Source: Tannerella sp. (GTDB lineage Bacteria; Bacteroidota; Bacteroidia; Bacteroidales; Tannerellaceae). Taken from it: a stretch of 13,466 nt of DNA. Every line of letters starts with the position of its first letter. Within the stretch, counting starts at the first letter, position 1. Location of the stretch: assembly GCA_031283785.1 (NCBI GenBank), contig JAITBC010000029.1, positions 1 through 13,466 on the forward strand. Direction: 5' to 3'. A program made the position numbers and the translations under genes. Shown piece by piece: positions 12,933-13,466 of this stretch. The notes below the pieces were generated by a model that worked only from the letters and a program-made list of their open reading frames with translations, was not told the DNA's origin and did not search any database.

Positions 12933-12944
12933 CGCGAAAATATT

Positions 12945-12974
12945 TTTGTACTTAAAAAAAGAATTGTATCTTTG
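12945..12974 (+). promoter_or_regulatory. Strong promoter in the intergenic region after cdaA
   Basis: TTTG (12945-12948), 18 bases, then TATCTTTG (12967-12974), an excellent match to the Bacteroidota promoter. Transcription would start near 12981. The only thing obviously downstream is the mini-ORF/AG-tract segment that ends at the terminator at 13215-13261. Confidence 0.65.
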
Positions 12975-13010
12975 GCGCTGTTATTATATTTTAATTAAAA
13001 AATACAGTTT

Positions 13011-13124
13011 ATGAATTTTCTCTTAACAACAGGCATCGCCATTAATTGTAATTTAAGCATCTTTAAACCTTTCGACGGAAGGTTTGGCACAATCCTTGTA
13101 GAGAGAGAGAGAGAGAGAGAGTAA
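13011..13124 (+). CDS. Mini-ORF of 37 codons ending in the AG tract
   Basis: ATG at 13011 follows an A-rich leader about 30 bases after the predicted transcription start. The peptide begins MNFLLTTGIAINCNL and ends in an ERERERE tail encoded by the AG tract, with TAA at 13122-13124 directly after it. It has no recognisable domain. Its frame depends on tract length: adding one AG unit, or losing two, would join it to the open plus-strand frame that runs from 13102 to the window edge. It may be a real small peptide, a leader peptide or chance. Confidence 0.2.
   Translation: MNFLLTTGIAINCNLSIFKPFDGRFGTILVERERERE
13084..13100 (+). promoter_or_regulatory. Sigma-54-like -24/-12 site
   Basis: TTGGCAC (13084-13090), five bases, then TTGTA (13096-13100). 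This matches the RpoN consensus TTGGCAC-N5-TTGC with T for the final C. The start point would fall near 13110, inside the AG tract. No enhancer-binding site is identified. Confidence 0.3.
13100..13121. repeat. Perfect (AG)11 dinucleotide microsatellite
   Basis: Twenty-two bases of uninterrupted AG repeats, flanked by CTTGT and TAAGC. Perfect dinucleotide tracts this long are rare in bacterial genomes outside contingency loci and are prone to polymerase slippage. It overlaps the mini-ORF's last codons and the predicted start of the sigma-54-like promoter. Confidence 0.97.
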
Positions 13125-13214
13125 GCAGGCGTATATAGTCTATTTATATTATGTACACGCGCGTATTACCATGCGCGTTGGAGACAGCAAAAACAAATCA
13201 TTTAAGCCCTATTT

Positions 13215-13261
13215 CCCGGTCGTCGTTTTTATCGGATTAAACGACGAAACGGGATTTTTTT
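13215..13261 (+). terminator. Strong intrinsic terminator
   Basis: CCCG (13215-13218) and CGTCGTTT (13221-13228) pair with AAACGACG (13239-13246) and CGGG (13250-13253). This makes a 12-bp stem with a small internal loop, followed by A and seven T. It acts on plus-strand transcripts; on the minus strand no T-run follows the stem. Confidence 0.75.
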
Positions 13262-13263
13262 AT

Positions 13264-13466
13264 TCACAAAAACATATTCAAGCCAATGTCGCCGGTGTGG
13301 ATTTCCGGCTCTGGGTAATCGAATCGGACGCCGACGTACGCAATTTCGTCCTCGAAGCTGACAAAGTACTCGACAGCGACGCCTTCAAAGGCCTGTTCGC
13401 CGCAGTAGAAGCCACGCTTGCCGTAGCTTTCCCGACGCTGTCGGGCGTGATAGCTGTCAGCGGAGT
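13264..13466 (-). CDS. 3' end of an unrecognised minus-strand gene (partial)
   Basis: The last 66 codons of a minus-strand frame ending with TGA at 13264-13266; the 5' part lies beyond the window. The peptide is rich in Tyr, Phe and Glu and ends YPEPEIHTGDIGLNMFL; I do not recognise it. Three points favour this reading. The sequence turns GC-rich just inside the stop. The region to the left looks non-coding. The plus-strand terminator at 13215-13261 fits a convergent gene pair. The competing reading is a plus-strand frame open from 13102 to the edge, with an ATG at 13171 (MRVGDSKNKSFKPY) and in codon register with the minus frame. That one would have an intrinsic terminator inside its coding sequence and a start codon partly buried in a GC hairpin. 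I cannot exclude it. Confidence 0.45.
   Translation of the reverse strand, partial: SADSYHARQRRESYGKRGFYCGEQAFEGVAVEYFVSFEDEIAYVGVRFDYPEPEIHTGDIGLNMFL

Follow-up and report, generated by a model that had tools for sequence, protein, structure and literature searches.

An AG repeat inside a leader reading frame as a putative phase-variable transcription attenuator in Tannerella sp.

The downstream edge of the window (the whole stretch of 13,466 nucleotides of Tannerella sp. DNA that was analyzed here) carries a promoter, a short leader ORF, and an AG tract, in this order and all 3′ of cdaA. Comparison with related loci provides good support for reading this locus as an ON/OFF slippage switch, in which the copy number of the repeat would set the reading frame. 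We consider it rather probable that the switch acts as a phase-variable transcription attenuator. According to this model, a housekeeping-type promoter would give rise to a leader RNA, on which ribosomes would start at the leader ATG and translate through the AG tract, with slippage in the tract setting their reading frame. In two of the three states, ribosomes would detach just past the tract, allowing the hairpin further downstream to fold and to end transcription (OFF). In the third state, they would cross the hairpin region and block its folding, and transcription would enter the operon beyond (ON), which in relatives mostly begins with SusC. At 11 copies, the window would represent the OFF state.

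The earlier note on this DNA had described a promoter in front of an ATG-initiated frame that ends at a pure 22-base AG tract, a table of frame outcomes by copy number, and a terminator hairpin inside the fused frame. These elements are indeed present at the locus, and the predicted fold bears out the hairpin (Table 1).

Table 1. Features of the candidate switch at the downstream edge of the window
Feature	Positions	Strand	Basis
Bacteroidota-type promoter, TTTG (12945–12948) and TATCTTTG (12967–12974), 18-nt spacing	12945–12974	+	Box match; kept in relatives
Leader ORF in the 11-copy state, 37 codons and TAA, ATG at 13011	13011–13124	+	Frame table; frame kept in relatives, peptide not
Imperfect inverted repeat, 10-nt arms, 90% complementary, just 5′ of the −24-like element	13065–13085	+	Inverted-repeat scan
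RpoN-like −24/−12 element TGGCACAATCCTTGT, abutting the tract, final base T (C at most related sites)	13085–13099	+	
(AG)11 tract, 22 bases, proposed length switch	13100–13121	+	
TAA closing the leader at 11 copies (proposed OFF)	13122–13124	+	
TAG, predicted leader stop at 10 copies (proposed OFF)	13136–13138	+	
Long frame, reached with 9, 12, or 15 copies (proposed ON), passing the hairpin to the contig edge	13123–13466	+	
Terminator-like hairpin, stem 13214–13254, followed by seven T (13255–13261)	13214–13261	+	Fold prediction
Unnamed protein family, fragment lacking the N-terminal part	13300–13461	+	Homology of the plus frame

A run of eight AG units was absent from 200 shuffles of the window. 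The three frames behind the tract end 0, 14, and more than 343 nt 3′ of it, the last of these being open to the contig edge at 6 copies as well as at 9, 12, or 15, and the hairpin lies within this frame, 93–133 nt 3′ of the tract. Its predicted fold has an energy of −20.0 kcal/mol (z −3.09) and was equaled in stability in 1 of 200 shuffles; a simple terminator scan of the window did not list it. This hairpin would presumably terminate transcription, and translation would relieve the termination. A protein database search with the leader protein returned the window's own protein alone, placed on a single contig of 13,466 bases, so that the window seems to span an entire contig. No known RNA family was detected in the window at the gathering threshold.

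Promoter and hairpin of the window are flanked by 25-nt arms (12936–12960 and 13255–13279) that are 80% complementary. Conserved inverted repeats around the promoter were not found in relatives, which do not keep these arms. An invertible promoter was rejected, given an arm complementarity over 70 sites of 0.578 for own arms, hardly higher than the 0.566–0.573 for swapped arms (0.547 for shuffled arms).

We searched the 41 genomes of one Tannerella-like genus with a pattern in which the 17 bases 5′ of the tract are followed by (AG)4, tolerating two mismatches at most. Matching sites numbered 68 and lay in 20 of the genomes, with no more than 11 in any one of them; the reversed pattern matched 0 sites. 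Within the family, a stricter pattern matched 19 of 123 genomes, all of them within the genus set. Many of these sites are paralogues, with the 68 sites collapsing into 17 clusters and the largest cluster comprising 44, which weighs against the attenuator model. We compared 109 sites, consisting of the window, the 68 sites, and 40 hand-picked sites that possess the pre-tract element and have no AG match. The repeat at the same spot is AG at 65 sites, GA at six, poly-G at 10, AC at two, and AT at one, and 25 sites have none. The resulting set of 84 repeat sites excludes three of the 68 that fell below the repeat threshold and counts one of the 68 as GA; it retains five AG sites that have four copies, along with one (AT)4 site. 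When poly-G behind the element was searched for on its own, allowing one mismatch at most, it was found at 15 places in nine of the 41 genomes and at none in the controls. Because different repeat units occupy one position, we argue that the repeat itself, and not its sequence, is what matters.

Between loci, the number of AG copies ranges from 4 to 35 (65 AG sites, window included) and is evenly spread modulo 3, with 21, 24, and 20 sites for remainders of 0, 1, and 2. These differences are between loci, since each species is represented by a single genome in the collections. Most of the named genomes are draft MAGs, so that tract lengths may carry assembly error, another point against the attenuator model. 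Two sites with identical flanks (L147 and L148) may be one locus that was assembled twice. At L134, L136, L142, L147, L148, L153, and L172, the contig breaks off in the tract itself or no more than about 110 nt away, which is what assembly breaks caused by tract length or paralogues would produce. The tracts would presumably slip in living populations. The part of the earlier proposal of an ON/OFF contingency locus that the related loci support is frame switching by copy number.

Promoter and leader frame accompany the repeat in relatives. The promoter box TANNTTTG was found within 110 nt 5′ of the leader ATG at 56 of 61 sites, compared with a mean of 5.7 and a maximum of 12 over 200 resamples; here and below, resampling is first-order Markov and not exact shuffling. 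An ATG located 45–110 nt upstream and stop-free to the element was present in frames 0, 1, and 2 at 62, 11, and nine of the 84 repeat sites, and at two, zero, and three of 22 sites without a repeat. At 20 of the 84 repeat sites, an in-frame leader ATG is absent, which counts against the attenuator model. The 51 nt 5′ of the element are stop-free in the three sense frames at 70, 22, and 15 of the 84 sites (16, seven, and two of 17 cluster representatives) and in the antisense frames at 35, 47, and 43. Substitutions in the leader are flat across codon positions (561/677/635 in 114 pairs of equal length and 60–98% identity).

Behind the tract, one frame is long and the others close sooner. At 68 sites with at least 400 nt behind the tract (window left out), the sorted stop-free runs have means of 11, 81, and 258 nt, compared with 18, 51, and 115 in resamples. 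Reduced to a single site for each of the 17 clusters, the set has a longest run of 225 nt versus 107, a value that 0 of 1000 resamples reached. The antisense strand is also rather open, which counts against the attenuator model, with 160 nt versus 219 nt for the sense strand; the sense run is longer in 57 of 68 sites and shorter in nine. Codon positions in homologous long frames are again flat (1441/1279/1467), and no peptide constraint that would point to a conserved product from the frame behind the repeat was detected in these 82 pairs of relatives. Because an open frame is kept while codon positions are flat, selection appears to be indifferent to the encoded peptide and to keep a frame open regardless of what it encodes. 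The longest of the three frames is the one currently in use at 18 of 68 sites, and at 11 of 51 sites with an in-frame leader, a share somewhat below the third that random phase would give and thus a further point that the attenuator model has to bear. A metagenome protein of 122 residues (P0003) represents a leader of this type fused to a long frame, and its last residues are those encoded by locus L125 at its second hairpin.

The earlier note regarded the terminator inside the fused frame as the weak point of a switch, a view that the relatives make improbable. We scanned the DNA between tract and next gene for hairpins followed by a T-run at 74 sites with at least 150 nt behind the tract (window included), using three scans of different strictness, the rules of which were altered twice. 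Hairpins were found at 21 of 74 sites in the first scan (1–4 in resamples), at 15 of 74 in the second (1–3 in resamples), and at 46 of 74 in the widest, which has a high background (13–20 in resamples). In the widest scan, the strongest hairpin is crossed by at least one open frame at 36 of 46 sites, where 12.5 are expected. When each cluster contributes a single site, the count is 10 of 12, and finer clustering gives 17 of 21. Among the 46 sites, exactly one frame crosses at 26, two at 10, and none at 10, and the frame currently in use crosses at nine of the 46. The frames through the hairpin suggest that the terminator is the target of the switch, and that translation through it would be the switch itself; movement of the leader stop codon is probably directed at this terminator. 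Against the attenuator model stand the 28 of 74 sites at which nothing passed even the widest scan, the sites with no or two frames through the hairpin, and the twice-altered scan rules together with the high background of the widest scan.

Downstream of the cassettes, 40 of 66 AG-list sites with a repeat show a forward ORF of at least 450 amino acids in the DNA examined. At 31 of the 40 sites, this ORF matches the TonB plug and carboxypeptidase-regulatory domains that mark SusC; five others match IPT/TIG, and YdjC, DUF4988, Fasciclin, and AAA domains were seen at one site each. By eye, SusD-like ORFs follow many of the SusC ORFs. The window itself ends 5′ of any next operon gene; its own next operon, beyond the contig edge, is presumably of the SusC type.

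The position of the long frame relative to this next ORF bears on a related explanation, in which the same frame switch would work by translational coupling, with the ON leader ending at or next to the next start codon and no terminator involved. At 30 sites, a large ORF begins no further than 700 nt away; at 10 of them, the end of the long frame lies 25 nt or less from the start of this ORF, and the two overlap at L163 and L168. At the other 20 sites, however, the long frame ends 68–438 nt early, hairpins are enriched behind the tracts, and the long frame of the window has no end before the contig edge. As a general account of these loci, coupling therefore seems unlikely, although the 10 close sites indicate that it may replace attenuation at some loci.

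AG tracts are also common elsewhere in the genus, with 226 matches for at least seven units in 32 of the 41 genomes. The compared set includes 56 AG sites of at least seven copies (window included), so about a quarter of these tracts lie at the element described here, and most are found away from it, which speaks against the attenuator model. We hand-picked 20 other AG sites (12 of them from genome G018, which alone has 46 matches). Eight of these sites carry TTAATTAAC, seven lie beside an unrelated repeat rich in GC, and the remaining five belong to neither group. The loci with TTAATTAAC 5′ of the tract form a second class, which lacks the RpoN element and possesses a leader ORF in each case. 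Second-class AG leaders were noted at L269, L270, L272, L273, L275, L280, L282, L283, and L286, with SusC-like ORFs, by eye, behind L270, L272, L273, and L275. At the seven G018 loci (L265–L268, L271, L274, and L276), the AG tract lies beside a ACGCGCGTAGCGCG-like repeat without a promoter box.

The abundance of AG tracts is the reason why we give some weight to a reading in which the locus is a dispersed repeat that contains a microsatellite and has no regulatory role, improbable as we hold it to be. Consistent with such a repeat, the segment is multi-copy, since a search with the plus frame gave 11 matches in the relative G002, of which ten fall 3′ of the tract, and the seven G018 tracts beside an unrelated repeat show, by eye, no SusC-like ORF directly behind them. 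What a repeat without a role would not explain is the maintenance of a frame, the fixed place of the tract after promoter and leader, the different repeat units at one spot, and the SusC ORFs that come next.

One second-class locus informs on how the cassettes may be built. Positions 13100–13306 of the window are 95% identical in the DNA 3′ of the tract to L286 (G022:C286), whereas the leader 5′ of the tract is unrelated and of the second class. Given such identity behind different leader classes, the AG repeat seems to be the place where leaders and hairpin modules are exchanged by recombination. G022 was rejected as a strain of the window species, because two window regions were unmatched despite the common 95% segment (8 of 16 candidates scored); G002 is 85–89% identical there.

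The tract directly follows a sequence resembling an RpoN (sigma-54) promoter, which has the −24/−12 consensus TGGCAC-N5-TTGC. Positions 13085–13098 fit TGGCAYRNTNNTTG, which represents most of this pattern and was matched in 5 of 200 window shuffles. The base that follows is a T, so that the element of the window ends in TTGT, whereas most relatives have TTGC. Most related sites carry a full −24/−12 match 5′ of the tract, but the same pattern was used to find them. Across the 41 genomes, TGGCAYRNTNNTTGC has 153 matches versus 61 for reversed controls. The rpoN gene was found in 36 of the 41 genus genomes; matches to the RpoN activator domain, found in seven of seven genomes, do not discriminate, as they also occur in 14 of 14 control genomes. 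Among the sites without a repeat (L225–L264), seven have CGGACACTTTT further upstream, and 14 of 22 precede, by eye, ABC transporter- or TolC-like ORFs.

These observations would fit an RpoN promoter with the repeat in its initially transcribed region, where tract length would tune transcription or the 5′ end and the frame would be irrelevant: the tract follows the TTGC of the −24/−12 match at related sites, the element and rpoN are frequent in the genus, and the element without a repeat often precedes transport genes. We weigh this reading lower because the −12 part of the window reads GT and ends in T, not C. It also leaves unexplained the open leader frame, the long frame behind the tract, and the second class of AG loci that lacks the element, and we regard it as very unlikely. 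Conversely, the attenuator model has no need of an RpoN-like element. This element sits within the leader ORF, and the ORF possesses a housekeeping-type promoter of its own.

The long frame of the window runs in frame into a piece of an unnamed protein family. The plus-frame protein search, a check named in the earlier note, yielded 21 proteins including the window's own, P0004, and P0005. The plus frame shares 50% identity with G001:C185 over query residues 60–113, and a relative of 447 amino acids (L185:859-2199) ends in a Glucosaminidase domain. Of eight loci taken from the genome search with the plus frame, five have AG tracts that differ in length from that of the window, with 6, 7, 17, 24, and 24 copies. 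Members of the family, which occurs near some cassettes, start with MFYxRIN and comprise about 200–240 amino acids. A phage origin of the plus frame was dismissed, as it had no match in the phage collection and no relative in viral contigs; two exact patterns likewise had no matches in viral contigs.

At the window edge, the plus frame has a codon score of 25.0 bits and the best minus frame 11.9, in a test in which the true frame won for 140 of 165 control pieces and one training gene was out of frame. A minus-strand gene ending at 13264 was rejected for its lower score. The earlier note had treated strong homologs of the minus-strand peptide, with none of the plus-strand one, as evidence against the switch; the plus frame does have relatives, and for the minus-strand peptides no significant match appeared in the two sets searched, with none over the cut-off in Pfam and a best E-value of 0.68 among 80 cdaA loci.

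A classical contingency gene, in which the fused frame including the family piece would be the switched product, is the least probable of the alternatives: in-frame continuation into the piece and the best codon score at the edge favor it, but the piece lacks the N-terminal part of the family (compare P0005), at L087 (reversed) it lies in a different frame from the long frame, and the absence of peptide-level constraint on relatives' leaders and long frames, with a next large ORF that is mostly SusC, makes the fused frame unlike a product. In this part, the earlier proposal is revised.

The window cdaA is 84–88% identical to that of the four nearest uncultured Tannerella MAGs (L001, L002, L003, and L061), which we take to be from termite gut. 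Among ten of the 80 cdaA loci, seven have, by eye, pta- and ackA-like ORFs behind cdaA, and L061, L006, and L001 differ. Conserved synteny 3′ of cdaA was rejected for the window, the DNA of which behind cdaA has no blastn match in the 80 cdaA loci. In L001, about 526–1008 nt after cdaA, an open frame encodes a repeated peptide close to RHIPIVGNHIPIVG.

The closest known counterpart of the proposed attenuator is the pil1 pilus locus of Streptococcus gallolyticus (Danne et al. 2014; PMC3894217). There, GCAGA repeats in the gene of a leader peptide determine whether its stop codon comes before the terminator or falls within it, and experiments showed that termination is prevented when the longer leader is translated. 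The repeat lies inside the leader-peptide ORF, and out-of-frame changes of the repeat switch the state (PMC3894217), as proposed here. In both cases, the short leader stops before the hairpin (39 bp in pil1, about 90 nt in the window) and the longer one reaches or passes it, and an operon for a surface system lies behind, in the present case known from the sequence of relatives. The layout matches the described pil1 system in each feature visible in sequence, which is why the same kind of switch is proposed. The two differ in phylum and in the repeat unit, which is GCAGA in the described pil1 locus and AG, GA, AC, or G here. Further, one pilus locus was described there, compared with up to 11 sites per genome here, which are known by sequence alone.

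In the simple-sequence contingency loci of Neisseria, Haemophilus, and Campylobacter, the repeat is found in or before the gene of a variable protein. The candidate switch shares with them a change of reading frame by slippage of short repeats, but its repeat lies in a leader with a non-conserved peptide. Phase variation in Bacteroidales is known mainly as DNA inversion, and invertible promoters switch their surface systems at random; random switching of surface systems would be common to both, whereas the route, inversion of DNA, is different. RpoN promoters resemble the relatives in spacing and in the bases before the tract, but here the element is located inside a leader ORF with its own promoter, and the window copy ends in TTGT. 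Among the matches listed in the open-licence literature, there was none for a repeat-controlled leader of SusC.

As a tentative extension, leaders that bear a repeat might be interchangeable across the genus, with shared hairpin modules attached at the repeat. They might act before various SusC/SusD operons as many random attenuators that are independent of one another, and each cell might thereby display its own combination of nutrient receptors. An RpoN promoter embedded at many of these loci may add a phase-independent start inside the repeat. The attenuator model predicts the state of a locus from tract length alone, with every third copy number being ON. If true, a mechanism described for one streptococcal pilus would exist elsewhere at scale, and a slippage-driven, translation-controlled terminator at many SusC-type operons would give single cells a further way to diversify their nutrient uptake and outer-membrane receptors.
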